Shown: in pieces, positions 1,093-18,908 of the stretch | Position numbering within the stretch: the first letter of the stretch is position 1 | Layout: each line of letters starts with the position of its first letter | From: a virus | Strand: one strand, 5' to 3' | DNA: 23,938 nucleotides | Virus record (IMG/VR): IMGVR_UViG_3300047317_000532 | Coordinates: 1 to 23,938 of that record | The notes under the pieces: generated by a model | Seen by the model: the letters and a program-made list of their open reading frames with translations, nothing else | What the model was told of the DNA's origin: nothing | Databases searched by the model: none | Translations under genes and position numbers: made by a program

Positions 1093-1437
1093 TTACCGAC
1101 TCTTGTGGGTGCTGTGCTTGGCGGCGTACCGCTTGGCGTCACGGTCGGTCTGGTCCCGGCGCACGGCGGTCTCGACGACGTCCTGGTAGACGGTGACGAT
1201 GCGGTGCTTGGCGGGGTCGACGACGGCAACAAGGTCTCCGCGCACGTGGCGGACCTGTCCGGGAACCCTCATGGAGGGGTAGGTATGAAGCGGCTCGTTG
1301 GCGGCCAGCAGGACGTCCTCGCTGGTCCAGCCCTTCTCTGCGGCCTGCTTCTGCGCGTGGAAGGTCAGTCGGAAGTTCGGGGCCTCCGTGACGGAGGAGT
1401 CCCAGTTGATCCCGAGAGCTTCGGCGATGGTGGTCAT
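1093..1437 (-). CDS. DUF4258-like (RelE-fold-like) small protein
   Basis: A 114-residue protein. The core from about residue 22 reads FRLTFHAQKQAAEKGWTSED, then a conserved-looking VRHVRGDLVAVVD and HRIVTVYQD. This order (His-Ala-x-x-Arg/Lys at the start of a helix, a short helix beginning Thr-Ser-Glu-Asp, then beta strands ending in a Val-Thr-Val-Tyr strand) is that of DUF4258 proteins, which resemble RelE/ParE-like folds. The C-terminus is very basic. RNA binding or a toxin-like activity would fit the fold, but no antitoxin partner is adjacent. The ATG at 1435-1437 has a good TAGGAG eight bases upstream and its own promoter at 1483-1511. It carries one copy of the GTATGAAG element. Assignment is from pattern memory only. 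Confidence 0.7.
   Translation of the reverse strand: MTTIAEALGINWDSSVTEAPNFRLTFHAQKQAAEKGWTSEDVLLAANEPLHTYPSMRVPGQVRHVRGDLVAVVDPAKHRIVTVYQDVVETAVRRDQTDRDAKRYAAKHSTHKSR
1283..1290 (-). repeat. GTATGAAG element, copy 1
   Basis: Plus strand GTATGAAG. In the DUF4258-like gene it is read CTT CAT AC(C) as Leu-His-Thr (context NEPLHTYPS). Confidence 0.75.
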
Positions 1438-1482
1438 GCGCGTCTCCTAAGTTCGAGCCTTGTTCGAGCGGCTGATAGGGAG

Positions 1483-1511
1483 ACACTACGGTCCGCGTAG
1501 GTTGTCGTCAA
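1483..1511 (-). promoter_or_regulatory. Sigma-70-type promoter for the DUF4258-like gene
   Basis: On the minus strand TTGACG (1511-1506), a 17-base spacer and TAGTGT (1488-1483) make the best vegetative promoter in the window, about 46 bases before the ATG at 1437. Its spacer ends GGACCG ahead of the TAGTGT, a weaker relative of the CGGTA element found in other intergenic regions. Confidence 0.65.
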
Positions 1512-1542
1512 TGGGTTTAGCAAATCAACTTGCGATATGCCG

Positions 1543-1674
1543 CTACCAGTCGAGGACAGCGCCTCGCAGAGCCAGGCGGACGGGAGCTATGTCCCAATCC
1601 TCCTGCTCTTCCGGAGGTCGTATGACGTCCCCCAGCCCCTCGCGGAGCAGGACGTCGAGCAGTTCTTCGCGCAT
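1543..1674 (-). CDS. Small acidic protein, 43 aa
   Basis: A 43-residue open frame in the gap between the helicase gene and the DUF4258-like gene. It starts MREELLDVLLREGLGDVI, is acidic, and ends VRLALRGAVLDW, with the amphipathic character of a real small protein. The ATG at 1672-1674 is the only in-frame start, because a TGA lies five codons upstream. A GAGAG lies about nine bases before the ATG, in the same stretch as a possible -10 element, so the message could be leaderless or nearly so. I do not recognise it. Evidence is composition, placement and the promoter-associated element just upstream; it could still be a chance frame. Confidence 0.5.
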   Translation of the reverse strand: MREELLDVLLREGLGDVIRPPEEQEDWDIAPVRLALRGAVLDW

Positions 1675-1680
1675 ACCTGC

Positions 1681-1704
1681 ATACTCTCATGCAGTTACCG
1701 CTTT
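1681..1704 (-). promoter_or_regulatory. Possible regulatory region of the 43-aa gene
   Basis: The plus strand carries TACCGCTTT (1696-1704), the shared intergenic element, between the helicase stop and the small ORF. A weak -10-like GAGAGT lies at 1688-1683 on the minus strand, which would place transcription start within a few bases of the ATG at 1674. No convincing -35 is seen. Confidence 0.35.
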
Positions 1705-1739
1705 AGAACCACTCGACGTCCTGGGTGAGATCCTGGAAG

Positions 1740-3383
1740 TTACGCCGCTTCCAGGGCTTGCGTGAGCGTGACAACGTCGTTGTCGATACGCCCGTTGCCG
1801 TCGGCACCCCGGCCGTCCGTGATGGCCGCACCCACCCGCCGCTTGTGCGCCAGCATGGCCAGCTTGCGGGGCTCGGTGGTGGCCGCCGTGATGGCGTTGA
1901 GGATGTAGATGTCCTTGAACTCGCTGCTCGCGCGGTTGTGCCGGGCGTTGATCTGGTCCTGCTTCCCCGACGACCAGGCGAGGTCGTAATTGACCAGGTA
2001 GTTGGCCATGTACAGGTCGGTGCCGAACGCCCCGGCGTGGCTGGACAGGAACACCCGACACTGTCCATCGGTCTCGAAACGCTGGGCGGCATAGGCCTTG
2101 GCCGCCGACGACATGCGCCCGGTGTAGGTGACAGCACACCCTTCGGGCAGCCGGTCGGCCAGCAGATCGAGCATGTCGGGGTTCACCGAGAAGATGATCA
2201 CCTTGTTGCCCGGCACCGCGAGGATGTCGTCGACCGCAGCGACCACCGCGTCCAACTTCGGCGCGGTCTTGACAGCGTCCAGCACGCCGGACTGCCACAC
2301 CTCGTAGGCGTACTTCGACCCCGGCCACGTCTTCTTCTGCACGCCCGACTGCCGCGCCTGCTCGCTCTCCTCGTAGCGCTGGCCGGAACGCACGATCAGG
2401 TCCGGGTGGTTCAGCAGCATGTCCAGCGCCTGCATCCGCGCCATGATCTTGCCCTGCTGGCTGTTCTCGTTCGGGGTGTCCCCTCCGTGGTAGTGGGCGA
2501 ACAGGTCGAAGGACGTCGTGTTGGGGCCGAGCGACTGCAGCTCGGCGAGCAGGTCGGCGGAGATGTGCTTGTAGGCCTTGCGGGTGTGCGTGTCCAGGGC
2601 CACCGGGATGACGCTCTCCTGCACGCGCGGCAGGAACGGCTTCACGTCCTCGTCCAGGCGCGTCTTGCGCACCATGGCGTCAGCCAACTTGGCGTGCAGC
2701 AGCGGCAGGTTGCGGTACTGCTGCACACCTCCGAAGCGGTTGCGGACGATGTAGGTCTTGTCGAACAGGTCGAAGCGTCCCAGGACGTCCTCGTCCACCC
2801 ACTGCATGATCGAGAACAGTTCCTCGGGCTTGCCGTTCTCCACCGGGGTGCCGGTCAGCCCGAACCGGAACGGCGCCGTCAGCCGCTTGATCTTCCGGGT
2901 GCGCTGGGCCTTGAACGTCTTGATCGCGGTGCACTCGTCCAGGACGATGCACTCCGGCTTGATCCGGCGGACGAAGTTCCAGTCGTTGACGACGTTCTCG
3001 TAGCCCAGGATCACGTAGTCCGGCCGGTACGTCTTCACCTTGACGTACTGGGCCGCGCGCTTCTTGGCGTCGCCGTCGATCAGGACGCAGTAGTCCTCCG
3101 TCGGCACGGTGATCTCCTGCGACAGGCCGTCCTCGCGCACCTTGATCACGCGAGTGTCCACGTCCGTCAGGCGGGCGATGGACTTGGCCCACTGGTACTT
3201 CAAGTTGGCCGGGACGACGATGACGGTCGTCTCGACCTCCTCCCTGTCGATCAACTCCTCTATCGCGGCCAGGGCGATGACCGTCTTGCCCAGGCCCATC
3301 TCGTAGGCAATCAGGAGAGAGCCGCGCGCTACGGCACGGTCCACGGCTTCCTCCTGGTAAATATGAAGATCGACGGCTAGCAC
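1740..3383 (-). CDS. SNF2-family (superfamily 2) DNA helicase/translocase
   Basis: A 547-residue ATP-dependent DNA translocase or helicase. Visible motifs: Q-like entry LHIYQEEAV (6-14), Walker A MGLGKT (29-34), motif Ia VVPANLKYQW (57-66), motif II as VLDECT (148-152, in place of the usual DEAH/DEAQ), motif III LTGTP (176-180), and in the second RecA lobe an SSHAGAFGTDL segment and a QINARHNRAS motif VI region. This order is that of SNF2-type proteins. I place the start at the GTG at 3381-3383, which overlaps the TAG of the HNH-like gene and puts the Q-like motif at the N-terminus; longer extensions would read through that gene out of frame. Members in phages act in replication, recombination or branch migration. 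The Cys after the DE pair in motif II is unusual. Confidence 0.9.
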   Translation of the reverse strand: MLAVDLHIYQEEAVDRAVARGSLLIAYEMGLGKTVIALAAIEELIDREEVETTVIVVPANLKYQWAKSIARLTDVDTRVIKVREDGLSQEITVPTEDYCVLIDGDAKKRAAQYVKVKTYRPDYVILGYENVVNDWNFVRRIKPECIVLDECTAIKTFKAQRTRKIKRLTAPFRFGLTGTPVENGKPEELFSIMQWVDEDVLGRFDLFDKTYIVRNRFGGVQQYRNLPLLHAKLADAMVRKTRLDEDVKPFLPRVQESVIPVALDTHTRKAYKHISADLLAELQSLGPNTTSFDLFAHYHGGDTPNENSQQGKIMARMQALDMLLNHPDLIVRSGQRYEESEQARQSGVQKKTWPGSKYAYEVWQSGVLDAVKTAPKLDAVVAAVDDILAVPGNKVIIFSVNPDMLDLLADRLPEGCAVTYTGRMSSAAKAYAAQRFETDGQCRVFLSSHAGAFGTDLYMANYLVNYDLAWSSGKQDQINARHNRASSEFKDIYILNAITAATTEPRKLAMLAHKRRVGAAITDGRGADGNGRIDNDVVTLTQALEAA

Positions 3384-3688
3384 TGGGAGTACCACCGGCT
3401 GAACTGCTCGTTGGAGCGCACGCGGCGCTGGCGCGGCATCCCTGCGAGGGAGTCCTTCTCGTCCCGCTGGGTGACTCCGATGATCAGGTGGGAGGGCTTT
3501 ATGCATTTGCGGTGCGTGCAACTGCGGCTCTTGGGCTCGCGGGATCCGGTGACGTACACCAGAATGCTGGTGCCCTTGAACGTCGGGACGGAGCAGGAGT
3601 CGCTGAGGTAGATCCAGCAACCCTCCCGCTCCTCGACGCGATCCCAGAATCGGGGGTCCAGGTGCTCGTAGCCCTCGGGGGCTTTCAT
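3377..3688 (-). CDS. HNH-like small protein, probably degenerate
   Basis: A 103-residue protein resembling the compact phage HNH family: GCWIYL near residue 23-28 and a zinc-knuckle-like SCTHRKCIKPSHLIIGVTQR at about 56-75, matching the usual C-x4-C-(V/I)-N-P-x-H-L-x-x-x-T pattern. The His normally found two residues before the first Cys (the Asp-His pair) appears to be replaced by Ser-Arg, so nuclease activity is doubtful; a DNA-binding role is possible. Its ATG shares a base with the TAA of the primase gene (TAATG), and its stop overlaps the helicase start, so it is tightly built into the replication operon rather than inserted in a gene as homing nucleases are. Confidence 0.7.
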   Translation of the reverse strand: MKAPEGYEHLDPRFWDRVEEREGCWIYLSDSCSVPTFKGTSILVYVTGSREPKSRSCTHRKCIKPSHLIIGVTQRDEKDSLAGMPRQRRVRSNEQFSRWYSQC

Positions 3689-4653
3689 TAGAACCTCGCT
3701 ATGACGGATGAGTAGGAATTGCGCACGGCGAAGAAGACTTCGGCGTCGGTCATGTCTCCTGGGTCCTTGGCGGAAGTGCCGGAGTAGTCCAGGAACTTCA
3801 GGGCCAGGCCCCGGCGGGACCATTCCTTGCGCAGCCTTTCGCTGTGCTTGGCGCCGTCCACGTCGTTGTCCAGCGCGATGATCACCGTGTCGAAGTGGTC
3901 GCGGATCAGGGACATCTGCGCGTCGGATACACCCGCGCCGAAGGAGGACAGGCCGGTGGGGAATCCAGCCGCGCGCAGGCGGACGACGTCCAGAGGGGAC
4001 TCGACGAGGATCGCCGTGTCGCCCTCGTAGGTATGAAGCCCGAACAGCGTCTTGGACTTGGTCATGGAGTTGGGGCGGTTGCGGAAGTAGCGGGCGTTCT
4101 TCTCCTGCCAGCCCCACAGCAGGCCGGTGTCGGGGTCGCGGACGGGAACGATCCACATCTCCCGCTCGGTGTCCCACAGCACGCCGCTGGCGTCGGCGTC
4201 CTCGGGGGCGAACCGGCGCTTGGCGCACTCCTCCGCAGGAGGGGTCACCCACAAGGCCAGCGAGGCCTCGTTGATATGCGTGGTGGTGTCGACCTTGGTC
4301 GGGTCGGCCGTCTTCTTGGCCAGGAACTTCTTGACCCGCTCGATTCCCCCGCGCTTCCGCACCCACGCAATAGCATCCGCGTAGGGAATTTCGAGTACAT
4401 CCTTCACCAGGATCACGAACACGCCGTGATATCCGCAGGAGAAGCAGTTGAACTGCCCGACTCCGGAATGCACGGAGAATGACGGATGCTTGTCCGCCTT
4501 TCCTGTCCTCGCCTCGTGCATGGGGCAGGGCATGTGGAGTTCTTCGCCGTACTCCTTGTACTCCAATCCGAGTTCGTCGAGGCAGGCCGCCACGTTGCCC
4601 GGAATAGGGGCGGTTCCTGCGGAGTCCCAACCACTACGCTTTACCGCGCGCAT
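3688..4653 (-). CDS. DNA primase, CHC2 zinc finger plus Toprim
   Basis: A 321-residue primase that would make RNA primers for lagging-strand synthesis. The N-terminal zinc-binding site reads CPMH (Cys43, His46) and CFSC (Cys70, Cys73), the CHC2 pattern. The middle resembles the DnaG core, and the Toprim part shows ILVESPLDVVRLRAAG (metal-binding Glu) followed by the TVIIALDNDVDGAK segment (Asp-x-Asp). It is shorter than bacterial DnaG and lacks an obvious helicase-interaction domain at the C-terminus; the DnaB-like helicase is encoded two genes upstream. I chose the ATG at 4651-4653 because AAGGGAGG lies just upstream and the TAA of the preceding gene overlaps it (TAATG). It carries one GTATGAAG copy. 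Confidence 0.92.
   Translation of the reverse strand: MRAVKRSGWDSAGTAPIPGNVAACLDELGLEYKEYGEELHMPCPMHEARTGKADKHPSFSVHSGVGQFNCFSCGYHGVFVILVKDVLEIPYADAIAWVRKRGGIERVKKFLAKKTADPTKVDTTTHINEASLALWVTPPAEECAKRRFAPEDADASGVLWDTEREMWIVPVRDPDTGLLWGWQEKNARYFRNRPNSMTKSKTLFGLHTYEGDTAILVESPLDVVRLRAAGFPTGLSSFGAGVSDAQMSLIRDHFDTVIIALDNDVDGAKHSERLRKEWSRRGLALKFLDYSGTSAKDPGDMTDAEVFFAVRNSYSSVIARF
4031..4038 (-). repeat. GTATGAAG element, copy 2
   Basis: Inside the primase gene, read CTT CAT AC(C) as Leu-His-Thr (context FGLHTYEG), just before the Toprim segment. Confidence 0.75.
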
Positions 4654-4895
4654 TACTGCCTCCCTTCCAGGTATCTGAGGTAGTGAAGGAGTTCCGAGCC
4701 GTCCTGTCGCATGTACCAGGACCCGTAGGTGAGGTATCGGATCTTCCCCAGTCCCTGGATTCTGTGCATACCACTGGCGAATAGCACACTCCGATCGCGG
4801 GGACTTATCTTGATCTCCCAGCACCAGAATGCGAATTCCCGGTAGTTCCCGGCGAGAACCACCAGCAGGGTGTCAGAAGGATCCTTGCCAGCCAT
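4653..4895 (-). CDS. Hypothetical protein, 80 aa, in the replisome operon
   Basis: An 80-residue protein with an N-terminal hydrophobic strand LLVVLAGNYREFAFW, then ISPRDRSVLFASG and a C-terminal YLRYLEGRQ. The strand-helix-strand pattern (LVVLAGN, then VLFASG, then KIRYLTYGSW) looks like a small Rossmann-type domain that lacks a P-loop. I do not recognise the family. I start it at the ATG at 4893-4895, which has AGGAG seven bases upstream; this overlaps the end of the DnaB-like gene by 23 bases, and its stop overlaps the primase start (TAATG). Its fixed position between helicase and primase suggests a role at the fork, by context alone. Confidence 0.75.
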   Translation of the reverse strand: MAGKDPSDTLLVVLAGNYREFAFWCWEIKISPRDRSVLFASGMHRIQGLGKIRYLTYGSWYMRQDGSELLHYLRYLEGRQ

Positions 4896-6141
4896 CGGTG
4901 TTCTCCTCTCCGGCACCTGCGAACGGGTCCTCGTTGAGTTCCTCGAACTTCCCCGTCTCCCAATCCCACTGGCAGTAGGTCTCCAGCGGCGGGCAGTTTC
5001 GTGCCAGGACGACCTTGATCTTGTTGATGTTCTCGTCGTCGGTTCGCTCGACGCCGAGAATCACGTCGGAGTCCTGGGCGAAGGAGGAGGAGTAACCGAT
5101 CGAGTCGGAGGTGATCCCCTTCTTCTTGTTCATCTTCCATTCCAGGACCTGCGTCGATATGACCATGGGGATCTGCAGGTTCTTCGCCATGCGCTTGAAT
5201 CCACGAGTGAGATTCGTCAGCGCCTGACTGGATCCCTGCGCTTCTCCGAGTTCGTCCTGCATCATGTAGATGCCGTCCACGAATACGATCGTCGGCCGGA
5301 TGGTGTCAATCTTCGACTGCACACCGGTCAGCGTCGTGGCGCTCATGGAGTCCGACGAGAGGAAGAATGAAGGCATTGCCTCCAATTCCCTCAGGGCCTT
5401 TTCGAGTTTGTCCCACTCGGTCTTCTTGAGCGTGCCGTTCCGCAGCCGGGCGTGGGAGATCCCCGCGCGGATGGCGTCGAAGCGTTCCTCCTGCTCCTCG
5501 TTGCTCATCTCGAACCCGATGAACAGCGGGCGCTCGCCATAGAGGTGGGCCGCCATGGCGGCCAGCAGCAGCAGCGTGGACTTCCCGGCCTTGGGCGGGC
5601 CGACGAAGGTGACCAGTTGCTCCTTCTGAAGGCCCTGAGTGGCCCTGTCGATCGTCGAGAAGCCGGTGGGGACACCCCGGAGCCCGTCGGGCAGGTCCTT
5701 CAGCGAGAGGTACCGTGCAAGGCGTTCCTGGCCGGTCTCCGTCAGGTCGGTGTCCCGGCTGTTGGGTACGGCCGAAGCGATGCTGGCCAGCGTGCGCGAC
5801 AGCGCCTCGATGGCGGACTTGGCGTCGTTGTCCTCGTGTGCGTCGACCGAAGCGGCCAGGCCCTCCTCCAGGAGGGCCAACGTATGAAGTTCTCGAAGCC
5901 GGTCGGTGAGCACCTGCATGGTGTCCTCGACGCGAACGAACTTGTAGGTGGGGAAGTCGGTCTTGATGGTGGCCAGCGAGGGAACCTGGCCGTAGGTGCC
6001 CTTGTGGCGCAGGATCGCCTTGAAGACAGCGCGGTTGTCCGGGTCCTGGAAGAAGTCCGGTGTCACACCGGCGTCCGCGACCTCGGCCAGGTCCTTGTCC
6101 TGGATGACGCGGGAGACGAGCAGCCGCTCGAAGTCAGCCAC
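4873..6141 (-). CDS. DnaB-like replicative helicase
   Basis: A 422-residue protein with a DnaB-type N-terminal helical region (1-100: LLVSRVIQDKDLAEVADAG, PDNRAVFKAILRH) and a RecA-type core. Walker A is GPPKAGKST (181-189), Walker B is TIVFVDG (284-290), and FIGFEMSNEE and DVILGVERTDD fit the later helicase motifs. It would unwind DNA at the fork, loaded by the DnaC-like protein encoded two genes upstream. The start is the GTG at 6139-6141, overlapping the TAG of the preceding gene by one base (TAGTG); the longer frame upstream has shadow-like composition. One GTATGAAG copy lies in the N-terminal region. The C-terminus is short and acidic. Confidence 0.9.
   Translation of the reverse strand: MADFERLLVSRVIQDKDLAEVADAGVTPDFFQDPDNRAVFKAILRHKGTYGQVPSLATIKTDFPTYKFVRVEDTMQVLTDRLRELHTLALLEEGLAASVDAHEDNDAKSAIEALSRTLASIASAVPNSRDTDLTETGQERLARYLSLKDLPDGLRGVPTGFSTIDRATQGLQKEQLVTFVGPPKAGKSTLLLLAAMAAHLYGERPLFIGFEMSNEEQEERFDAIRAGISHARLRNGTLKKTEWDKLEKALRELEAMPSFFLSSDSMSATTLTGVQSKIDTIRPTIVFVDGIYMMQDELGEAQGSSQALTNLTRGFKRMAKNLQIPMVISTQVLEWKMNKKKGITSDSIGYSSSFAQDSDVILGVERTDDENINKIKVVLARNCPPLETYCQWDWETGKFEELNEDPFAGAGEENTDGWQGSF
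5882..5889 (-). repeat. GTATGAAG element, copy 3
   Basis: Inside the DnaB-like gene, read CTT CAT AC(G) as Leu-His-Thr (context RELHTLALL, residues 86-88). Confidence 0.75.
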
Positions 6142-6584: not shown

Positions 6585-7233
6585 GGCGGTCTCCCCCGAC
6601 GACGGTCAGGTGCGCGAAGGCTCCCTGGATGAAGGAGCCCATGGACGGGTTGTAGATGTCCCCCCACTTGCTCGGTGGCACGTTGGAGGTGATCAAGGTC
6701 GGCCGGGCCTCGCGGTGCCGCAGGCGCAGCAGGTCGTCCAGCAGGCCTTCGGCGTAGCCGCTTTTGGTCTTGTGCTCCTTGCCGACGTCGTCGAGGAGCA
6801 GCACGGGTGCCTTCTCGGCCGCGAGGATCTGGTCCTGCACAGCCCACCAGCGGGCGATGGCCTCGGGCTCCTTTCGGTCCTGCAGGCCCATCCGCTCGAT
6901 GCTCAACTTCACGTAGTCGGAGTAGGCCAACCACGCGACCGGCAGGCGGCGGGTGAAGTAGATCTCCATCAGCGTCGCCGTGGCCAGCGTTGTCTTGCCG
7001 GTGCCGGGAGGTCCGACGACCAGCAGACCCTTGCCGATCTGCGACCAGTCGGCCGGGTAATGCTCGATCGGCCGCTTGTCGGTGACGTAGTGGTCCTGCA
7101 GGTTGTCGACGAACTTCTGGCAGACCGCCTTGTGCGGCGAGTCCGCCAACGTATGAAGTCGAAGGTGGCGGTAGTGCGGTGGGATCCCGTACTCCTTCAG
7201 CCGGAGCGCGTGGACCCGGGGGTCAGTTGCCAA
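6571..7233 (-). CDS. DnaC-like helicase loader (AAA+ ATPase)
   Basis: A 220-residue AAA+ protein of the DnaC/IstB type. Walker A is GPPGTGKT (74-81), Walker B is VLLLDDVGKE (144-153), and LITSNVPPSKWG near 188-199 matches sensor 1 and the segment after it. DnaC proteins open and load the DnaB ring onto origin DNA. The start is the TTG at 7231-7233, six bases after GGAG; it overlaps the 3' end of the preceding gene by 11 bases. The longer ATG frame reads the upstream gene in another frame. A GTATGAAG copy lies near the N-terminus (residues 27-29). With the initiator upstream and DnaB-like helicase downstream, it completes an initiator-loader-helicase set. Confidence 0.9.
   Translation of the reverse strand: MATDPRVHALRLKEYGIPPHYRHLRLHTLADSPHKAVCQKFVDNLQDHYVTDKRPIEHYPADWSQIGKGLLVVGPPGTGKTTLATATLMEIYFTRRLPVAWLAYSDYVKLSIERMGLQDRKEPEAIARWWAVQDQILAAEKAPVLLLDDVGKEHKTKSGYAEGLLDDLLRLRHREARPTLITSNVPPSKWGDIYNPSMGSFIQGAFAHLTVVGGDRRAER
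7151..7158 (-). repeat. GTATGAAG element, copy 4
   Basis: Inside the DnaC-like gene, read CTT CAT AC(G) as Leu-His-Thr (context LRLHTLADS, residues 27-29). Confidence 0.75.
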
Positions 7234-7561: not shown

Positions 7562-7571
7562 GTGTGGGTAC

Positions 7572-7585
7572 CTCCTGTGGTGGGC
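7572..7585 (-). repeat. CACCACAGGAG leader, 112-aa gene
   Basis: Second identical copy of the 14-base leader, here extended to AGGAGG, in front of the ATG at 7561. Unlike the copy at 7240-7253, this one lies in non-coding DNA, so coding constraint does not explain the match. Confidence 0.6.
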
Positions 7586-7596
7586 GAACGATGAGA

Positions 7597-7625: not shown

Positions 7626-7643
7626 CCTTATTCGAAACGCGAA

Positions 7644-7673: not shown

Positions 7674-7682
7674 GCGGGTCGG

Positions 7683-8720
7683 TCAGGCCCAGTACTCCTC
7701 GTTGAACCTGTTGGCCTCCACCTGGTCGGCGACTTCCGCCTTGCCCCGGCGCTGGACCAGCAGCCCCCTGGCGGCGAGGAAGTCCTTCCAGGCGGGGACG
7801 TTCTCCGAGCGCTGCCAGGAGGGCGACCAGTAGGTGATGATCATCTTGGTGATCTCCTCCTTCGAGGTGCCCTCCCGCATCCACCGGCCGAAGTTCCCGG
7901 TGAGCGCCCCGATGTTGGTGGCGCCGGGCACCGGGTGACCCACCTCCTGCGCCCGCTTGTCGAAGAACGAGGCCAGGACCTCTGAGGGCCGCGTGGAGCG
8001 ACGCTCATGAGGTCGCCGGACCGGAGGGGCCGCGTTGGCCAGTTCGGCCGCGACAGCGGCTTCTGTGACCTCTCCGGGGTATCCAGACGCCAGAGCCTGA
8101 GCCACCACGTAAGCCGGGTCCAGTTCCCTCTCTGCCTGGGCGGCTTCTTCCGCCTGCTGCTTCCGGGACTTCTTCCGGCCGCCACGCTTGGGAGCCACGA
8201 CCGCACCCCAGCCCTTACCTCCCGGCCGGGAGGCCTCCTCGTCCTCCTCGCTTCGTGACCGTGCCGCCCGGCGCGGTGGGAACAACGAAGTTGTTCCTAT
8301 ATCTCTTACTACTAGTTGGTTACTAGGGTTGGATGAACCACGTTCCGGGTTACCGCCGGTCACGGAACCACGTTCCGGGTTAAGGGCGGAACCACGTTCC
8401 GGGTTGTCGTCCTCCAGATCAGAGAACATCCAGTCTTCCACCGGACGGATTCGCCGGACATAGGAGCGGTACTTGCTTGCCTCTGCAGGCGCCCTATCCT
8501 TCGGGATCGACTCCACGATGCAGAGTTCCTCCAGTTCCCGGACCGCCTTGCGTACAGCCCGATCCGTCAATCCGGTACGCCTGGCGATCGTGGGCATGGA
8601 TTCCCACATCATGCGGTCGTCGTTGGACGCGTCAGCCATCCGCAACAGGACAACCAGCGGCGTCGTGCGCACGCGGGTGCTAGCGTGCGCCCACACCTCG
8701 TCGTTTACCTTGTGGCTCAC
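7683..8720 (-). CDS. Replication initiator with N-terminal winged helix
   Basis: A 345-residue protein. Residues 15-95 form a winged-helix domain (TTPLVVLLRMADASNDDR, then TIARRTGLTDRAVRKAVREL as the helix-turn-helix, and a wing ending YVRRIRPVEDW). Residues 106-129 hold three NPERGS repeats, encoded by DNA iterons. A basic linker (KRGGRKKSRKQQ) follows, then a helical C-terminal region with IGALTGNFGRWMREGTSKEE, similar in style to the C-terminal, partner-binding parts of phage initiators. It probably binds the repeats in its own gene and recruits the DnaC-DnaB complex, as lambda O does. The GTG at 8718-8720 overlaps the TGA of the small winged-helix gene by four bases (GTGA). A strong terminator follows. 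Confidence 0.8.
   Translation of the reverse strand: MSHKVNDEVWAHASTRVRTTPLVVLLRMADASNDDRMMWESMPTIARRTGLTDRAVRKAVRELEELCIVESIPKDRAPAEASKYRSYVRRIRPVEDWMFSDLEDDNPERGSALNPERGSVTGGNPERGSSNPSNQLVVRDIGTTSLFPPRRAARSRSEEDEEASRPGGKGWGAVVAPKRGGRKKSRKQQAEEAAQAERELDPAYVVAQALASGYPGEVTEAAVAAELANAAPPVRRPHERRSTRPSEVLASFFDKRAQEVGHPVPGATNIGALTGNFGRWMREGTSKEEITKMIITYWSPSWQRSENVPAWKDFLAARGLLVQRRGKAEVADQVEANRFNEEYWA
8279..8405. other. Probable replication origin inside the initiator gene
   Basis: Three directly repeated 18-base iterons lie beside the most AT-rich stretch of the neighbourhood (about 8281-8332, including CCTATATCTCTTACTACTAG), with a perfect 8-base inverted repeat (GGAACAAC-GAA-GTTGTTCC, 8279-8297) on the far side. 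Iterons next to an AT-rich unwinding region within the initiator gene are the arrangement of the lambda origin in gene O. The function is inferred from layout; no replication data are available. Confidence 0.7.
8335..8405. repeat. Three iterons, GGAACCACGTTCCGGGTT
   Basis: Copies at 8335-8352 (first G of the consensus replaced by T at 8334), 8364-8382 and 8388-8405. Each contains a dyad GGAAC-CAC-GTTCC. Spacing is 30 and 24 bases, so all copies keep reading frame and encode NPERGS on the minus strand. Confidence 0.9.
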
Positions 8721-9025
8721 TTAGTGACTGTCCCCCACGCCCGCACCGGTCGGATGTATCGGACCAGGTCGTTGTTCCCGTATACCCACTCGGACTCATC
8801 GTCGCGGGTACGGATGATGCCCCAACGGGTCTCCAGTTCCTCCAGGCAGGTATGAAGTTCTTCAGGTGTGACGTGCGCCTTGCGGCACAGGTACTCCTCG
8901 TTCACGACGGCCGTACGGAAGTCCTCGCTGGCGTTGTTGGCCAGTGCGAGAAGGATCAGAAGTGAACTGCCTCGGACCTCGTACGGTGCGTTCTCGTCTA
9001 CGTCGACCCAAACTGCGACGCTCAT
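8717..9025 (-). CDS. Small winged-helix DNA-binding protein, paralogue of initiator N-terminus
   Basis: A 102-residue protein that lines up over most of its length with residues 15-100 of the next gene's initiator: SSLLILLALANNASEDFR against TTPLVVLLRMADASNDDR, then a helical segment ending LEELETRWGI against RELEELCIVE, and a closing VRYIRPVRAWG against VRRIRPVEDWM. It is therefore probably a stand-alone winged helix derived by duplication. It could bind the same origin DNA, modulate the initiator or act as a repressor. The ATG at 9023-9025 has AGGAG eight bases upstream within a CACCACA leader. One GTATGAAG copy is present. In the region 9026-9120 I see only CACCACA-type boxes and no clear promoter. 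Confidence 0.8.
   Translation of the reverse strand: MSVAVWVDVDENAPYEVRGSSLLILLALANNASEDFRTAVVNEEYLCRKAHVTPEELHTCLEELETRWGIIRTRDDESEWVYGNNDLVRYIRPVRAWGTVTK
8850..8857 (-). repeat. GTATGAAG element, copy 5
   Basis: Inside the small winged-helix gene, read CTT CAT AC(C) as Leu-His-Thr (context EELHTCLEE, residues 58-60). The paralogous initiator has a different sequence at the matching place. Confidence 0.75.
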
Positions 9026-9123
9026 GTGGTGTTCTCCTGTTCCTGTGGTTATCAGTCTCCTGAATCCCACTGGTAGGGTTCATGCATCTCGGGGTTTGTG
9101 GTGGGCCTTCGGGTGTGGTGGCC

Positions 9124-9177: not shown

Positions 9178-9185
9178 GGCGTTTG

Positions 9186-10283
9186 TCACTCCCCGTCGAG
9201 TTCGAGGCCCTTCTCCTCGATCTCCGCCCGGGTCAGTTGCACGATCTTCGAACCGGCCGGGACACGGCCACGGCCGCGCTTGGTGAGGTTGCCCTCCTCG
9301 TCCTCCAGGAAGGCGAAGGTCTTGGACTCGTCACGCGGGCGGCCACGGCGCCGACGGCCGGAGGGCTCTTCCTGCTCCTCCTCGGCCTTCTGCTTGGCCG
9401 GACCCTCCCCCAGCGTATGAAGCGCCTTGCGCAGCAGTTCGGTCAGCGGGCGCTCGCGCACGTCGGCCTGGTTGATGACCGCGTTGCGCTCGTCCTCCAG
9501 CCGGAAGGCGGTGTACGCAGCCTCCAGCGCGGCACGCACCAGCCCCTGGTCGTCGGCGACAGGCTGCTTGGCGGTCTCGGCCTTCGGCTGCTCCTCCGGC
9601 TCCGGCTCGGCCTGCCGACGGCTTCGGCGCTGCGGCTTGTCCTCCTGCTTCGACTTGTCCTCCGGCTCGTCCTCGGTGAGCGGCTCCTCCTCCGGCTGCG
9701 CTTCTTCCGGCTCGGCCCGGCGACCTCGACGGCGACCACGCTTGGGCTCCTCCGGCTCAGGCTCGGGCTCGGGCTCCGGCTCGGGCTCCTCGGCGGCCTC
9801 GGGCTCCCCGAAGGAAATGTCGTCGAGCCCGGCGGTGAGGTCCTTGGCCTTGATGCCCTCCTGGTCAGCCGCGTCCAGGAGGAGTTCGGCCTCCTCGCTG
9901 CCGTCCTCGCCCCACAGCAGCACCAGGTACTTCTCCCCCTCCGCCTTCGCCAGCAGGTCGACGACCTTGGCTGTGACGTTGGCCGCCGTGTGCGAGGCGT
10001 CGGCGGTCCGGAGGATCTTGTCGAGCGCCCGCGACTTCTCGCCGTCGGTCACCGCGACGAAGGGCAGGTCGACGTACTCCGACCAGGCCAGCACGTTCTC
10101 CAGGCCGTCGGAAAGGTGCGTCTTGGTGATCGGGAGGATCAGGTTGATCTCGCGGTCGGAGGGGGCGGGGTAGCCGTCGGCGTCCTCGTCACCGAAGCCC
10201 AGCCAGTCGTTCAGGAGTCCCTTGATGTTGTCGAGGTCCACGTCGGCCGAACCGGCGAAGGCGAGGGTGATGGGCTTACTCAA
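9186..10283 (-). CDS. Acidic AT-hook protein with N-terminal alpha/beta domain
   Basis: A 365-residue protein in three parts. Residues 1-155 alternate strands and helices (ITLAFAGSADVD, INLILPITKTHLSDGLENVL, FVAVTDG, YLVLLWGEDGSEEAELLLDA), suggesting a Rossmann-like fold of unknown activity. Residues 159-245 are low complexity, with a run of Glu-Pro pairs and basic clusters (KRGRRRGRR). The C-terminal third has a canonical AT-hook, RRRRGRPRD (about 310-318), and a second basic KRGRGRVPAG (335-344). It likely binds AT-rich or minor-groove DNA. The TTG at 10281-10283 has CGGGAG upstream. It forms its own transcription unit between two terminators with a promoter at 10331-10359. It carries one GTATGAAG copy. 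I do not recognise the N-terminal family. Confidence 0.8.
   Translation of the reverse strand: MSKPITLAFAGSADVDLDNIKGLLNDWLGFGDEDADGYPAPSDREINLILPITKTHLSDGLENVLAWSEYVDLPFVAVTDGEKSRALDKILRTADASHTAANVTAKVVDLLAKAEGEKYLVLLWGEDGSEEAELLLDAADQEGIKAKDLTAGLDDISFGEPEAAEEPEPEPEPEPEPEEPKRGRRRGRRAEPEEAQPEEEPLTEDEPEDKSKQEDKPQRRSRRQAEPEPEEQPKAETAKQPVADDQGLVRAALEAAYTAFRLEDERNAVINQADVRERPLTELLRKALHTLGEGPAKQKAEEEQEEPSGRRRRGRPRDESKTFAFLEDEEGNLTKRGRGRVPAGSKIVQLTRAEIEEKGLELDGE
9415..9422 (-). repeat. GTATGAAG element, copy 6
   Basis: Inside the AT-hook gene, read CTT CAT AC(G) as Leu-His-Thr (context KALHTLGEG, residues 288-290). Confidence 0.75.
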
Positions 10284-10690: not shown

Positions 10691-10693
10691 GGG

Positions 10694-11182
10694 TCAGACC
10701 GTGCCCTGGACCGTCGCGGCGACTGGCTGATCGACCACGGGCTGTTCAGGGGCGGTCTCCTGCGGCTGATCGGTGGCCTCGTCGGTACTCAGGGGGAAGT
10801 TGTTCGACGGGCCGGACTCCTCCGCCTCCAGGACCTGCGCGAAGTCGAAGACACCGTCGGCCACGAAGCCGGTATGAAGCGTCTTCGCCTCACGCACCAG
10901 CGCGTTCTGCAGCCACTGGAACCATCCGTACTTCTTGAGCAGGGAGTGGTAGAAGGCGGTGCCGGTGAGCCAGGCGAGGAACGTCGCGATCACGGCCGGT
11001 GCCCAGGTGAAGTTCTTCGGGTCGCCCTGGTAGACCGCTGCGAAGCCGGTGGCCGCTGCGAGGAGGGCGTGCACGGTGCCCTTGACCGTGCTGTTGGTCG
11101 AGGGCCTGGTGAACATGGCGACGATGGCAGGCAGGATCAGACCGGCAGCAAGAGATGTCGCGTCGGCGTAGTTGGCGATCAT
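10694..11182 (-). CDS. Holin-like membrane protein, 162 aa
   Basis: Residues 1-80 hold three likely membrane segments (about 9-24, 35-51 and 60-78: LAAGLILPAIVAMF, VHALLAAATGFAAVY, APAVIATFLAWLTGTAFY). A soluble amphipathic region follows, then an acidic Pro/Gln/Glu-rich tail after residue 125. Three-helix holins with charged tails are common in actinophages, where they permeabilise the membrane for lysis. The ATG at 11180-11182 has AAGGA six bases upstream; longer frames begin in the upstream gene. It carries one GTATGAAG copy. No endolysin gene is adjacent. Confidence 0.7.
   Translation of the reverse strand: MIANYADATSLAAGLILPAIVAMFTRPSTNSTVKGTVHALLAAATGFAAVYQGDPKNFTWAPAVIATFLAWLTGTAFYHSLLKKYGWFQWLQNALVREAKTLHTGFVADGVFDFAQVLEAEESGPSNNFPLSTDEATDQPQETAPEQPVVDQPVAATVQGTV
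10872..10879 (-). repeat. GTATGAAG element, copy 7
   Basis: Inside the holin-like gene, read CTT CAT AC(C) as Leu-His-Thr (context AKTLHTGFV), just after the membrane part. Confidence 0.75.
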
Positions 11183-11204
11183 GGGGTTCCTTACGCTTTG
11201 GTGG

Positions 11205-12431
11205 TTACTGTGTCGGCAGTACGGCATATTGCGGGGTGCCCGAAGAGATCCCCAGAGGGACATTCTCTGTGAGCAGCGTTCGGATGAGGTAACTGCGCTC
11301 CACGCGGTTCTCGTAGAAGTAGGAGCGGGTCGCGTTCACCGTGCCGCCGGTTTCCCACAGGTAGTCGTCTCCCATGGATCCGTCGAAGTAAGGCCGTGCG
11401 GTGTCGCCTTCCTCGGTCAGTACGCCGTCGACCCAGAAGATGCTGCTCAGTCCCGCTGACATGGTGCTGGCCACGACGTTGACGCCCACGGACACCGAGG
11501 AGGTTATGGCGGTAAAGGACACCCAGATGGTGCGCCAGCGCTGGTCGTCGGGATCGACGGAGTCCACCGCCTGCCTCCACGTCTGAGATGCCTTGTACGC
11601 CGCGCCATTGCCCACCCATGGTGTGACGTCTCCACAGCCCTGGGCTGTGGCCACCCTTGCGGACAGGTTGTACGTGCGTCCGGGGATCAGCCCGGTGATG
11701 GAGAAGGCTGTTCCGCTGTCGCTGCTGGTGCCCGCCGGTACGGTGACCTTCAGTGCTTGCGTCCCCCGCCAGCAGAAACCGTCCCCTGCCAGCGTCGTGG
11801 TGCCGTTGGCGGAGTAGCCGGTGATTCCGGACTCCATGTTCGGGTTGCTTGCGTAGTTGAGCCGGGTCGGCTTGACGACGACCTGGATCTCCCGTGCGTT
11901 CTGGTAGGCGCTGGGGCCCGTTCCCGCCAGGGCCAGCTTTTCGAACTGGATGGCGTCCAGGATCTGATGCTTGTTGGCCGTCATGGAGGCGAACTTGAAT
12001 CCTACGGAAGCGTAGGCGGCCCTCTTCCAGGCGTAACCGCCTGCCGATACGGGATAGTCCGCCGGGCCGGTGAACGCGGCGTACTGGCGCGCGTAGGACC
12101 CCGCGACGGCCGATGTCAGGGCACCGCTGTTAACGCCGAGCCACGCCATGGCGGGGTCTATGCCCTGGTAGGGGTAGTGCGAGAAGTCCTTGAACGCTGC
12201 GGCGGGTGCTTCGACGCCCGCGCTGAGGTATCCGCCGACGGTGAACTGCCCGGCCAGTGGCAGCAGCGGGCGAGGTCGGGGGATGCGTATGACCAAGAGG
12301 CCATCGACGGTGAAGGCGCCGTCCATGGCGGGGGTGAGTACGCGGTAGGTGCGTACGGATATCCCACCGGTGATACCCAGCGAGGGGGTGAAGTCGTCGT
12401 CGTTGACGAAGGTGATGCTGTGTGTCGTCAT
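11205..12431 (-). CDS. Minor tail / receptor-binding protein with CBM-like domain
   Basis: A 408-residue beta-rich tail protein. The N-terminal region to about residue 180 resembles a phage tail attachment domain rich in aromatic and glycine residues. From about 191 it shows LNYASNPNMESGITGYSANG, then LKVTVPAG, GLIPGRTYNLSARV and a VSFTAITSSVSVGVNV strand, the signature of CBM4/9-like beta-sandwich carbohydrate-binding modules common at the ends of actinophage tails. It would contact cell-wall glycans on the host. The ATG at 12429-12431 shares a base with the TGA of the upstream gene (TGATG). It is the last structural gene before the holin candidates, the usual place for a receptor-binding protein. 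Confidence 0.75.
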   Translation of the reverse strand: MTTHSITFVNDDDFTPSLGITGGISVRTYRVLTPAMDGAFTVDGLLVIRIPRPRPLLPLAGQFTVGGYLSAGVEAPAAAFKDFSHYPYQGIDPAMAWLGVNSGALTSAVAGSYARQYAAFTGPADYPVSAGGYAWKRAAYASVGFKFASMTANKHQILDAIQFEKLALAGTGPSAYQNAREIQVVVKPTRLNYASNPNMESGITGYSANGTTTLAGDGFCWRGTQALKVTVPAGTSSDSGTAFSITGLIPGRTYNLSARVATAQGCGDVTPWVGNGAAYKASQTWRQAVDSVDPDDQRWRTIWVSFTAITSSVSVGVNVVASTMSAGLSSIFWVDGVLTEEGDTARPYFDGSMGDDYLWETGGTVNATRSYFYENRVERSYLIRTLLTENVPLGISSGTPQYAVLPTQ

Positions 12432-14470: not shown

Positions 14471-14483
14471 GTCAGATCAGCCC

Positions 14484-15155: not shown

Positions 15156-16633
15156 CAGCCGATCCCTCCGGTCATGGTGATGTTGGTGATGTCTCCGACC
15201 TTCGGGATCTCCCAGGCGCGGAAAACGACGTCAGCGGTGCCTGTCTGCGCGGCGTCCGCTCGGGCGACCATGGGGATGTCCACGTAGCGCACGCCGTCCA
15301 CGGCGAGCAGGGTCTTGTAGAAGTCGGACAAGGTCAGACGCATGCCGAAGTCGACGCTGGAGAAGCCGAGCATGTTCTTCAGCGACTGCTGGACGTCGTA
15401 GAGCACGGACGCACGCGAGTACCTGGGCCAGCATTCGATGGTGACCGGGGTACCGCTCTTGCCAACGTTCACGGCGACCACCGAAGGACCTGCGACGGTG
15501 ACGGTCACGCCTGCCAGAGCCTTGGCCTGGAGAGTGCTCAGCACGGTGTTCAGCACGTTGGTGCTGGGCTGTCCTCCGTCGGCTCCGATGACGTACACGG
15601 TGACGGAGGTGTAGGTGGCGGCGACCGCGTTGGCCCGAACGATGCCCGGAACGGTCAGTGCCAGGTCGGAGAAGTCGTTGAGGGTGACGCATCGGTCCTG
15701 GGTGCGGAAGATGCGCGGCGCGTTCGAACGGATCTGGTCGTTGGTCTCGGGATCCGCACCGCCCGTCATGGCGGAGGAGATCGCGCTGCCGTCGGTGTCC
15801 TGGGCAACGGTCACGCCGGGCAGGTTCGCGCTGGCGATGGCGTTGACGACACCGGCGTTGACGTTGCCGACGGTACCGCCGCCGACCCGGTAGGTCGCGT
15901 AGACGGTCAGTTGGTTGGTGGGGATGGCCCCGTTGACGTTGTCGCCGAAACGGATCCAGGTCGCACCGGAGTCGTCGAGGTAGGTGGTGAAGACTCTGTC
16001 CTCGGGCTCGGCGTCCACCAGGTAGGTGATGTACGTCCACTCGGTGAGGGAATCGACGTCGTCCACGAAGACCTGCACGGTCCCGCTGATGACGGGCACG
16101 TCGGGCAGCCGGAACTCCTGCACCGGCAGACCGGTCGAGGTTCCGACGTTGACCTGGGTGCGCGTGACGCCCTGGGTGATCGACACCGTGGCGGTGCCCC
16201 CGTTGAGCGGGACGGTCACGTCGGTGTCGGTCTCGTAGGTGACCGGGCTGTCGATGCTGTCGAGGTACTCGGTGACCACCTGCGTGCCTGCGGGCACCAC
16301 GACGGCGGGGCCGGGGTTGGACGTCTGGAAGGTCACCGTGCCGGTAGCGGGCACCCCGTTGCTGGGCCGGTAGCCGAGAAGGTCGGCGATCTGCAGCAAA
16401 GACAGGCGCTGCGTGGCGGTCGGCAGGAACGACTCCTGCTGGAGGCGGTCGCCGTAGTAGGACAGGTTGTCGCCGAGGTAGGAGAACAACTCCACCATGA
16501 GCACACCGAAGTCACCCTCGGAGGAGGGGACCCACTGGGGGTAGGCGCGCGAGGCGAAGTCCAGCAGCGAGGCTTTGAAGCCTTCGTAGTCCCTGCTGGT
16601 GTAGTCGATGGCCGGTGGGGTGGGGGTACTCAT
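15155..16633 (-). CDS. Baseplate J-like wedge protein
   Basis: A 492-residue homologue of P2 gpJ / T4 gp6-type baseplate wedge proteins. The N-terminal IDYTSRDYEGFKASLLDFA and GDFGVLMVELFSYLGDNLSYY with QQESFLPTATQR are characteristic, as are the central VPAGTQV strand and the later NDQIRSNAPRIFRTQDRCVTLNDF and VVAVNVGKSGTPV segments. Such proteins form the ring that transmits the contraction trigger. The ATG at 16631-16633 overlaps the gp25-like stop by four bases (ATGA), and GAGG lies upstream. Length is in the normal range for the family. Confidence 0.92.
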   Translation of the reverse strand: MSTPTPPAIDYTSRDYEGFKASLLDFASRAYPQWVPSSEGDFGVLMVELFSYLGDNLSYYGDRLQQESFLPTATQRLSLLQIADLLGYRPSNGVPATGTVTFQTSNPGPAVVVPAGTQVVTEYLDSIDSPVTYETDTDVTVPLNGGTATVSITQGVTRTQVNVGTSTGLPVQEFRLPDVPVISGTVQVFVDDVDSLTEWTYITYLVDAEPEDRVFTTYLDDSGATWIRFGDNVNGAIPTNQLTVYATYRVGGGTVGNVNAGVVNAIASANLPGVTVAQDTDGSAISSAMTGGADPETNDQIRSNAPRIFRTQDRCVTLNDFSDLALTVPGIVRANAVAATYTSVTVYVIGADGGQPSTNVLNTVLSTLQAKALAGVTVTVAGPSVVAVNVGKSGTPVTIECWPRYSRASVLYDVQQSLKNMLGFSSVDFGMRLTLSDFYKTLLAVDGVRYVDIPMVARADAAQTGTADVVFRAWEIPKVGDITNITMTGGIG

Positions 16634-17049
16634 CCGCTGATGACCTCACTTACGGTGCCGCCGACGCTGACCACGGCGGTGTTGGTCTTGAGCGCCAGGC
16701 TGGACGGGGACACGCCCGCCTCACGGCGCACGTAGTCGACCTCGATGCGCGCGAGGGACATCTGCGAGGCGTCCGGAATGGGTGTGGCCTTCTGCAGGAC
16801 GACACCGGGCTCGTACGTGGTGAACGCGGCTGTCACGGCGCGGCTGATCTCCTGAGCGACGAAGGACGCGTCAGGGTCGAAGAGCAGATCCGCCACGGGG
16901 ACTCCGTAGTCCGGCAGCATGACCCTCTCCCCCGGCTGCGTGCCGACGAGAGCGTTCACATGCTGCGCGATCTGCCTGTCCGGATTCGACTCGACGGAAA
17001 TCGTCCCGTCGGACGCTAGACGAAAGGGAATGGCTATCTCGGTAGGCAT
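16630..17049 (-). CDS. gp25-like baseplate wedge protein
   Basis: A 139-residue protein of the T4 gp25 / P2 gpW family, which clamps the sheath to the baseplate. It shows a basic-polar N-terminus, NPDRQIAQHVNALVGTQPGERVMLPDYGVPV (the family's signature of a helix, then GER and a PDYG turn), LFDP and a strand-rich end. The ATG at 17047-17049 follows GGGAG by nine bases. The start codon region and the untranslated leader are complementary (see the inverted repeat), which could control translation. It is followed directly by gpJ with a four-base overlap, the standard gene order. Confidence 0.88.
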   Translation of the reverse strand: MPTEIAIPFRLASDGTISVESNPDRQIAQHVNALVGTQPGERVMLPDYGVPVADLLFDPDASFVAQEISRAVTAAFTTYEPGVVLQKATPIPDASQMSLARIEVDYVRREAGVSPSSLALKTNTAVVSVGGTVSEVISG

Positions 17050-17098
17050 GCTTGCATTCTCCCAGGCGGGTTCTGCCTGCTGTTAACACCTACCGAGA
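17037..17098. promoter_or_regulatory. Inverted repeat bracketing the gp25-like start
   Basis: TCTCGGTAGG at 17037-17046 is the exact complement of CCTACCGAGA at 17089-17098. In the minus-strand mRNA the leader arm would pair with codons 2-4 of the gp25-like gene, enclosing its ribosome site; a smaller CAGGC/GCCTG hairpin lies within. The 62-base gap between spike and gp25-like genes holds no gene. A role in translation or mRNA processing is inferred. Confidence 0.5.
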
Positions 17099-17111
17099 CA
17101 GCCGTGGCGCA

Positions 17112-18908
17112 TCAGATGATGTTACCGATGGGCACCTTTGCGTTGATCAGGTACTCGGTTCCGGCCGCAACACTCAGTCCGGTTGCGGTGATGATGTTCA
17201 GGTTTCCTGCGGCGGAGATCTGGGCGAACGCCATGGTGATGGCGCCTGCGGAGGTCCTCTGCTGAACGAGTACGGGCTGCTGGGTGGCCGGATGCCAATT
17301 CGTTTCGGCGATGTTGAACACCGTGAGGCCCGGAGCGGTAGACCCCGCCTTGAAGGCGCCCAGCAGCCAGAGGTTGTCCTCCGCGTCGATGCGGTACCGG
17401 AGAGTTCCCCAGTTCGTGGATCCGTTGAAAGTAGTACTGCCCGACCAGTTGGTGTTGTACGACGGGACTTCCCATGACACCCCAGTGGCGGAGATGTAGT
17501 AGGTGGTCCCGATAACGCCTAGGACTTCGACATTCTTGTGGCTGGTGACCTGACCATTGCGAATGTCGACCAGCAGTTCATTGGTCTCGTTCTCCACGAA
17601 CTGAACCGACGCGGGATTCGATCCGTCCTTTGGCTGCGAATTCAACTGCATACGAAGGCTGCCGTTGGCGGTGTTTACCGTGGGTCCCTGCACCTGCAGT
17701 GCCAGGGATTCCGTGGTAGTTCCTGCGTTGATGATTCCCGCAACCACCTTGCTCGGCAGGCTTTCGGTGGTGGCATTCGATGGAAAGGAGAGGGCGCCAG
17801 CGGCTCCGGCAGAGGACGACAACTTCACCTGGACGTTGGGGGCGGTACCGACCAGCACCGTTCCACCGTTGATCTGACCGCCGTTGACCGTGACGCCGGT
17901 GATCGTCTTGCCGTTGATGGCGTTGGCGTCGAGCAGTTCCGCCGTGATCGACCCGGCCGCGATCTGGTTGGTCGTCACCGAGTTCGTGGCGAGATCCCCG
18001 GTACCCGCCTGTTTGGGGGTGTCGGAGTGCGACCCGGACGGCGCGGATGCGATACCGACCTTGGAGTAGGCCACCAACCGGTAGTTGTAGGCGTTGGCGT
18101 AGTTCTGCACCGAGTCGTACAGGAAGTCCGGGCCGGGCAGGGTGCCGACGACGACGGGGTTGGGGAACGCCGCGTTGGTGTCTCGCTGCACCTGCACGTG
18201 GGAGAAGATCACCGGCATGGGGCTGCCGGTGCTGTCCAGGCCGTCCCAGGACACACGAAGGCCTCCGAGCACTCCGAGCACCGTCGGGGTGGAGGGGACC
18301 GGCGGAGGGGTCGTGGAGGACGCGGTGGTGATGTCCGTGGAGGACCACAGGGAGGCGTTGCCGGAGTTGTCGATCGCCTGGACGCGGACGAAGAAGTCCA
18401 CGCCGGTATGAAGTCCGTCGAGGACGACGCGCGTGTCGGAGGTGACCTGGCCGCCGGACCAGTTGGCGTTGTCGTAGGAGGTCTGCAGCACGTAGTGCGA
18501 CAGGTCGACGAGGGTGGTGCCGTCCTGGTTCTCCGTCGGCGCGGTCCACGTCGCTGTCACCTGCGCCAGGGTGGTCCCCTCGGCGGTGACGTACTGCACG
18601 GTGGATAGCGCGAGCGCGGTCGGCTGCTTGGGTGGCATGCCATCGGCGATTCCTGCCACCTCGTCCTGCACCGCCTTGATCCCCAGAGGGGAGTACACCG
18701 GCTGGGTCACATCTCCCCCGGAGAACTGCACCCACACGCGCTGCCCCTGCGGGGGGACGGTGTTGGTCGGGGATGCGGGAACCGCCCACGCGCTTTCCGC
18801 GCCGCCCAGGATCTGGGGTATGAGCAGGGTGACCCTGGCTTCCTTGAGTGGGTCCACGTTGTTGGCAACCGTGCCTGGGTACATCCCCAGGATCTGGTCA
18901 GACGACAT
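17112..18908 (-). CDS. Baseplate spike (gpV/gp5-like OB fold) fused to FN3 and fibre segments
   Basis: A 598-residue fusion. Residues 8-73 are an OB fold of the baseplate assembly protein V / T4 gp5 N-terminal type (GMYPGTVANNVDP, ARVTLLIPQILG, PPQGQRVWVQFSGGD, VYSPLG). Residues 95-197 and 203-305 are two fibronectin III domains. Then a Gly/Asn/Thr-rich segment (SVTTNQIAAGSITAELLDAN, GKTITGVTVNGGQINGG) of the type that opens beta-helical fibres, and a C-terminal beta-rich region. Spike proteins plug the central hub and pierce the envelope. The ATG at 18906-18908 has GGAGG seven bases upstream and overlaps the hub gene by 11 bases. One GTATGAAG copy lies in the first FN3 domain. Confidence 0.82.
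   Translation of the reverse strand: MSSDQILGMYPGTVANNVDPLKEARVTLLIPQILGGAESAWAVPASPTNTVPPQGQRVWVQFSGGDVTQPVYSPLGIKAVQDEVAGIADGMPPKQPTALALSTVQYVTAEGTTLAQVTATWTAPTENQDGTTLVDLSHYVLQTSYDNANWSGGQVTSDTRVVLDGLHTGVDFFVRVQAIDNSGNASLWSSTDITTASSTTPPPVPSTPTVLGVLGGLRVSWDGLDSTGSPMPVIFSHVQVQRDTNAAFPNPVVVGTLPGPDFLYDSVQNYANAYNYRLVAYSKVGIASAPSGSHSDTPKQAGTGDLATNSVTTNQIAAGSITAELLDANAINGKTITGVTVNGGQINGGTVLVGTAPNVQVKLSSSAGAAGALSFPSNATTESLPSKVVAGIINAGTTTESLALQVQGPTVNTANGSLRMQLNSQPKDGSNPASVQFVENETNELLVDIRNGQVTSHKNVEVLGVIGTTYYISATGVSWEVPSYNTNWSGSTTFNGSTNWGTLRYRIDAEDNLWLLGAFKAGSTAPGLTVFNIAETNWHPATQQPVLVQQRTSAGAITMAFAQISAAGNLNIITATGLSVAAGTEYLINAKVPIGNII
18406..18413 (-). repeat. GTATGAAG element, copy 8
   Basis: Inside the spike gene's first FN3 domain, read CTT CAT AC(C) as Leu-His-Thr (context DGLHTGVDF, residues 166-168). 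It is the only copy in the structural genes upstream of the holins. Confidence 0.75.

Follow-up and report, generated by a model that had tools for sequence, protein, structure and literature searches.

The box in the 23.9-kb window

Why should a short sequence recur in a single orientation and a single reading frame in viral genes ranging from primase to baseplate spike? In the window (here the whole stretch of DNA analysed, a 23.9-kb virus record of 23,938 nt) an exact count on both strands recovered the eight plus-strand copies of GTATGAAG listed in the initial annotation and none on the minus strand. Its estimate of less than one copy by chance was borne out as well: dinucleotide shuffles of the window gave a mean of 0.17 copies (maximum 2) and 2000 codon-order shuffles of the window genes a mean of 0.07 (maximum 2). 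These shuffle controls exclude chance or codon bias as the origin of the window copies. Since the genes carrying the boxes are coded on the minus strand, the motif is CTTCATAC, and all eight copies are read in one frame as CTT CAT ACN, the Leu-His-Thr codons already noticed.

On the minus strand the box has the form CTTCATACC at 1282-1290 (codons 50-52 of a small gene at 1093-1437, with a stem candidate at 1266-1278), at 4030-4038 in the gene for a DnaG-type primase (Toprim, Zn ribbon), at 8849-8857 in a small gene (8717-9070) without a good hairpin, at 10871-10879 in a holin-like gene (10694-11263; hairpin 10858-10871), and at 18405-18413 in the baseplate spike gene (17112-18998; Phage_base_V, fn3), where a strong minus-strand hairpin of 9 bp with a 6-nt loop (18381-18404) lies immediately 3' of the box. 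The form CTTCATACG is found, also on the minus strand, at 5881-5889 in the DnaB helicase gene, at 7150-7158 in a DnaC-like loader gene (weak hairpin 7135-7148) and at 9414-9422 in an acidic/basic-rich gene (9186-10283), with a hairpin at 9397-9414 adjoining the box. The hairpin of the DnaB gene (5859-5878, minus strand; 8-bp stem, 4-nt loop) begins exactly at box offset +11, i.e. base +12. The near copy described at the start of the SNF2 helicase gene is present too: a degenerate box CTTCATATT (Leu-His-Ile; minus strand, 3360-3368, 8-mer 3361-3368), at whose position the closest relative carries CTTCATACC (G001 32606). A scan of the window against Rfam gave no match at the gathering threshold, and a tRNA search of the window found none. 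The window belongs to a phage of the soil-actinobacterium type. Its DnaB protein is 41% identical to those of Streptomyces phages BRock and GiJojo, and IMG/VR contains relatives far closer than these two.

Copy number and two box classes in relatives

Whole or long relatives of roughly 100-110 kb contain 31-39 forward copies each, all sense to genes, and about 36 genes per phage carry the box, as CTT-CAT-ACC or, in sister phages, as CTT-AAT-ACC. The element is thus polar, as proposed at the outset: the one reverse copy present in each of the six longest genomes follows its own transcript strand. These genomes are metagenomic contigs, linear according to IMG/VR, with heuristic gene calls made within the analysis; sites at homologous positions cannot be treated as independent, which makes counts by ortholog group preferable.

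In a set of 60 DnaB-related loci, those closely related carried either many CTTCATAC and no CTTAATAC, or vice versa. The 12 relatives analysed in full likewise fall into two all-or-none classes, CTTCATAC (class C, that of the window) or CTTAATAC (class A), with no mixture. In the sister phages the whole box is switched to CTTAATAC (Leu-Asn-Thr), and in one genome, G008, CTTAATACC occurs 37 times against 0.02 expected. Gene similarity between classes often equals that within classes; a DnaB from class A (L020), for example, shares 93% identity with one from class C, and class C members go down to 88% in this partial set. When the sites were sorted into 103 ortholog groups, both classes were found at the same place in 25. 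Enrichment of CTTCATATC in class C relatives (24 observed, 0.5 expected), a variant that the near copy in the window had foreshadowed, and of CTTAATATC in class A gives the box as CTT MAT AYC. Between close relatives, the dispersed element seems to have changed its sequence across the whole genome. Separately, a class A contig bearing a HicA-like gene (L165-L167) has one CTTCATAC, and G016 represents a putative, unproven third class with the codon pair CTT-CTA (35 observed, 1.5 expected), a HicA-like protein and no hairpin.

The initial annotation had placed seven of the eight copies in the replication-to-holin region. This describes the fragment and does not generalise: in complete relatives the boxes extend over nearly the whole genome, through replication, structural, RNA-repair and lysis genes, with the exception of one box-free block of 15-19 kb and a few smaller gaps. 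In the genomes measured this block lies downstream of a dpdA/TGT homologue and its genes are mostly without relatives in BRock or GiJojo; we infer that it comprises the early genes. One sister genome encodes a tyrosine integrase and a DUF5753/HTH regulator, both without boxes. No comparable motif was found in BRock and GiJojo. Avoidance of the other class's box went no further than that of control words, the tRNA sets of the one pair of opposite classes compared (G001 and G008) showed no difference, and a host/prophage search of the genome contigs returned no close relative.

The box is selected as translated codons

At 375 of 375 sites (12 relatives plus the window) frame 0 is open, with a start codon upstream, and reads CTT-MAT-ACN. 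At 348 of these sites it is the best coding frame as well, and most of the other 27 are mini-ORFs or gene ends. Boxes outside long genes lie within mini-ORFs of 9-28 codons, and 20 of 28 mini-ORF sites have a Shine-Dalgarno sequence and a start codon within 30 nt, compared to 4% of random intergenic positions. The mini-ORF immediately before recA, for example, reads ATG CGA CTT CAT ACC TAC GGG GGC CCC TGT TGA, and that between the primase and SNF2 genes ATG ACC CGG CTT AAT ACC TGC CCC CGC AAG GGG GAC CAC CGA TGA, each with AGGAG upstream. At two gene ends (G008 87634, G001 80148) the box stands directly before the stop codon. That intergenic boxes are given mini-ORFs of their own indicates that the box must be translated. 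In other frames the class A box yields TAA or TTA/ATA codons whereas the class C box yields none of these; the frame choice in class C is therefore free of stops, and stop avoidance is not a sufficient cause of frame 0. Dependence of the element on translation is well supported.

The codons, not the peptide, are under selection. Leu-His-Thr occurs 114 times in class C (13.1 expected), 103 times coded by CTT-CAT and 11 times by other codons; Leu-Asn-Thr occurs 82 times in class A (12.3 expected), 77 times as CTT AAT ACC. Selection on the Leu-His-Thr peptide is excluded by the 11 other-codon versions, to be compared with about 13 expected in total. The earlier view that the constraint acts on nucleic acid and not on protein is upheld by the same numbers: the refuting pattern named there, in which the 8-mer disappears but other codons preserve Leu-His-Thr, was not found, such codons being at background.

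An RNA stem-loop 3' of the box

A stem of at least 5 bp beginning at box +11 was found at 40% of 114 non-redundant sites versus 5% of controls; in this set stem frequency peaks at +11 and is at background outside about +9 to +14, and the folding energy (MFE) differs from control with p=1.6e-18. By ortholog group, 63 of 103 (about 60% of independent sites) have a good hairpin and about 40% do not; the outermost stem base is at +11 in 34 and at +10 in 9 of the 63. Compensatory changes are present in 7 pair columns as against 0-2 when the alignment is slid, and the stems contain 56 G-U pairs versus 13 A-C mismatches. The G-U excess together with the compensatory columns shows that the sense RNA is the folding molecule. 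In the alignment the reverse copy carries a GGGCTC-loop-GAGCCC hairpin of its own, formed on the reverse transcript. Guide-RNA pairing, with the reverse copy as anti-box seed, was considered and rejected on account of this hairpin, found on the reverse transcript in G008 and G005, and of its co-switching like an ordinary box.

The spacing of +12 from the first CTT base matches the published geometry of ribosome stalling by stem-loops (PMC7282821, PMC8861025); on geometric grounds, CTT would occupy the P site and MAT the A site. Most stems have 5-7 bp, which seems short in comparison with the frameshift stem-loops of the pausing studies.

A HicA-like protein as candidate reader

When 127 ortholog families were ranked by how well they split between the classes, a small HicA-like protein (G008 102903-103196; G003 84357-84602) gave the second-largest split overall and ranked first when only families of near-complete coverage were counted, with identities of.76/.77 within the classes and.47 between them. 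It was found wherever its region was covered in classes A and C, and also in G016; the window fragment is without this gene. No HicA-like match was found in BRock, GiJojo or G017, all three of which are without such a box. The match to PF07927 (HicA) is weak (E=5e-5, 23.8 bits, Pfam cut-off 27 bits). The predicted model, of medium confidence (pLDDT 73), has the order helix-strand-strand-strand-helix; a Foldseek search with it gave no match below E 0.001, with 1whz on top (E=0.034) and the HicA chains 6g26 and 4p78 lower. GGNH is invariant in all HicA-like sequences (GSH-type strand), and by alignment its His may be equivalent to the HicA catalytic histidine. No HicB match was detected among the proteins neighbouring the gene in G008. 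In both classes the HicA-like gene terminates in a box or near-box just before its stop codon, which would allow self-control. Other small families follow the classes too: a 64-aa family (G008 99075-99269) shows almost as clear a split, which makes it a further candidate for the reader, and a 240-aa family (G009 55872-56594) outranks the HicA-like protein in class split on partial coverage. The HicA-like protein is the best-supported candidate for the reader, and cleavage by it is what we infer.

Proposed mechanism and alternative explanations

The reading that we favour, and would put slightly above an even chance, is a dispersed CTT-MAT-AYC translational element with a hairpin at which the mRNA is cut by a phage factor, most likely HicA-like. 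The box (M = C in the class of this phage, A in the sister class) would be read in frame by the ribosome. Among the candidates of the initial annotation, the evidence points to an RNA signal such as a translational pause. At most boxes a short stem-loop follows from +12; once CTT occupies the P site, the stem would stand at the mRNA entry and may delay A-site tRNA binding or translocation, so that MAT would stay accessible as the A-site codon. The phage factor would then recognise the box and cut the mRNA. Such cutting would mark most transcripts of the genome, the 15-19 kb block excepted, and the two box classes would represent two specificities of the same cutting factor. Its role could possibly be the shut-off or processing of lytic mRNAs, as in T4 with RegB; it could also be RNA-level silencing or immunity akin to stoperators, in an integrase-bearing temperate phage. 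The full version, in which some 36 in-frame boxes with pausing hairpins are cut in the A site by a phage HicA-like RNase and form an RNA-level counterpart of stoperators (silencing/immunity with switchable specificity), is put forward tentatively.

The alternative that survives best is a programmed ribosome pause without cleavage, in which ribosomes stalled by box and hairpin would protect the mRNA or order it; the difference between the classes would then come from another, ribosome-acting phage factor. Frame 0, the mini-ORFs and the +12 hairpin also fit this reading, with the pausing geometry cited above (PMC7282821, PMC8861025). However, each base of the box is fixed (CTT, MAT, AYC), which plain stem-loop pausing does not need, and neither the genome-wide M = A/C switch nor the co-variation of the HicA-like protein is explained; we regard pausing alone as rather unlikely. 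Processing of the mRNA at the box by an unrelated RNase, with the hairpin shielding the 5' end newly formed on the downstream RNA, would suit the hairpin position just 3' of the box, the mini-ORF sites that immediately precede recA or lie between primase and SNF2, and the polynucleotide kinase and RNA ligase homologues encoded by the phages; by itself it offers no explanation for the need of frame-0 translation, and we consider it improbable. A shade less probable again is an antitermination or nut-like RNA element, bound co-transcriptionally and independent of translation. The box-then-hairpin order resembles boxA-boxB, the orientation is sense, and the reverse transcript carries a site with hairpin near its start, yet one site per operon would be enough and 31-39 are present, all 375 sites are in frame 0 with intergenic mini-ORFs, and the class C frame is not forced by stops. 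A repressor-binding DNA site of the stoperator type, listed first among the initial candidates, is very improbable despite the likeness in number, polarity, dispersal and class-wise sequence switch to cluster A stoperators (PMC6550527) and the integrase and DUF5753/HTH regulator of the sister genome, since a dsDNA-binding repressor needs neither a strict frame and mini-ORFs nor an RNA-type hairpin that tolerates G-U and not A-C; the frame, mini-ORF, transcript-strand and hairpin evidence speaks in the same way against a primase or recombination signal as the main explanation.

The open-licence literature searched contains no description of such a system. If the proposal is true, it would be a new whole-genome control of expression, with a codon-level address readable only on the ribosome and built into many proteins as well as into purpose-made mini-ORFs between genes, and it would amount to a naturally occurring, programmed set of substrates for a HicA-type RNase. 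Because the two sister groups carry different boxes, the reader protein and its specificity can be put to a direct test, and the element might be used for frame-dependent cutting of chosen mRNAs.

Comparison with known systems

The frameshift-stimulating stem-loops of dnaX and HIV differ from the present element, which has dozens of sites per genome and shorter, sequence-variable stems; CTTMATACC contains no -1 slippery heptamer X XXY YYZ. Lambda nut sites share the linear box followed by a small RNA hairpin; they are untranslated and few per genome, and boxB is sequence specific, whereas the strict frame and mini-ORFs here argue against translation-independent working. HicA toxins (PF07927) are matched by the HicA-like protein in its predicted fold and GxxH motif; it differs in its sub-threshold profile match and in having no HicB partner detected among the neighbours examined. 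E. coli HicA cleaves along the length of mRNAs, strongly preferring the site before codon position 1, and the specificity of HicA-type RNases is poorly defined (PMC8546651); targeting of particular transcripts by toxin RNases was found unlikely by Culviner et al., and the HicA literature examined does not report any long set of targets programmed across a genome.

Cluster A mycobacteriophages carry 20-30 short asymmetric stoperators per genome, oriented with transcription, whose consensus varies between heteroimmune phages together with the repressor (PMC6550527). The 31-39 forward boxes are similarly polar, but stoperators act as dsDNA sites at which a repressor blocks transcription elongation, and the boxes are translated in frame, placed in mini-ORFs and followed by an RNA hairpin; it is the HicA-like protein that segregates with the classes, and no DNA-binding repressor was identified as co-varying. 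The T4 RNase RegB acts on the phage's own mRNAs at the motif GGAG, with likely involvement of the ribosome, cuts its own message and cooperates with the phage PNK (PMC3014915). RegB has a RelE/YoeB-like fold and a short motif mostly in the translation initiation regions of early genes, in contrast to the 9-nt codon box described here, which lies inside ORFs, is absent from one 15-19 kb block and has a HicA-like protein as its candidate reader.

Other repeated codon pairs and motifs in related phages

A different set of codon pairs is strongly enriched in frame 0 in the related genome G016 (L112-L116), where CTT-CTA occurs 35 times against 1.5 expected and GAT-CTA and CAT-CTA are likewise overrepresented; none of the three is accompanied by the hairpin. 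This genome carries a HicA-like gene, the kind that encodes the candidate reader of the box, together with a tmRNA gene and many tRNAs. In G017 (L117-L122) we observed a polar motif, TTTTGGGT(T/C)GG, with 13 copies on a single strand and frequently outside ORFs, and a near-palindrome, CAATGTTG/CAACATTG, on both strands.

Genomic surroundings of the box

Downstream of the HicA-like gene lies a short sequence, CATCCCGGGTACCATTAAGTCGCAAGC (for example G008 (L080) ~103206-103245 and G003 ~84613), present once per genome wherever it is found. It is nearly the same across box classes A (CTT-AAT-ACC) and C (CTT-CAT-ACC) and divergent in some relatives, such as L179/L180. The gene next to it is very conserved, and CATCCCGGGTACCATTAAGTCGCAAGC is perhaps its promoter or operator. 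The only reverse box is found on a reverse transcript divergent from the tyrosine integrase gene (G008 ~2300-3519 and equivalents in other genomes). The record number of G008 (class A; IMGVR_UViG_2799112265_000002) looks like one given to a sequenced isolate, not to metagenomic DNA, and this phage may therefore have a culturable host. A box-free block of small genes follows the dpdA/TGT homologue (G008 72-87 kb; G001 60-79 kb). Most of these genes have no relatives in the more distant Streptomyces phages BRock and GiJojo, and the block is likely the early region.
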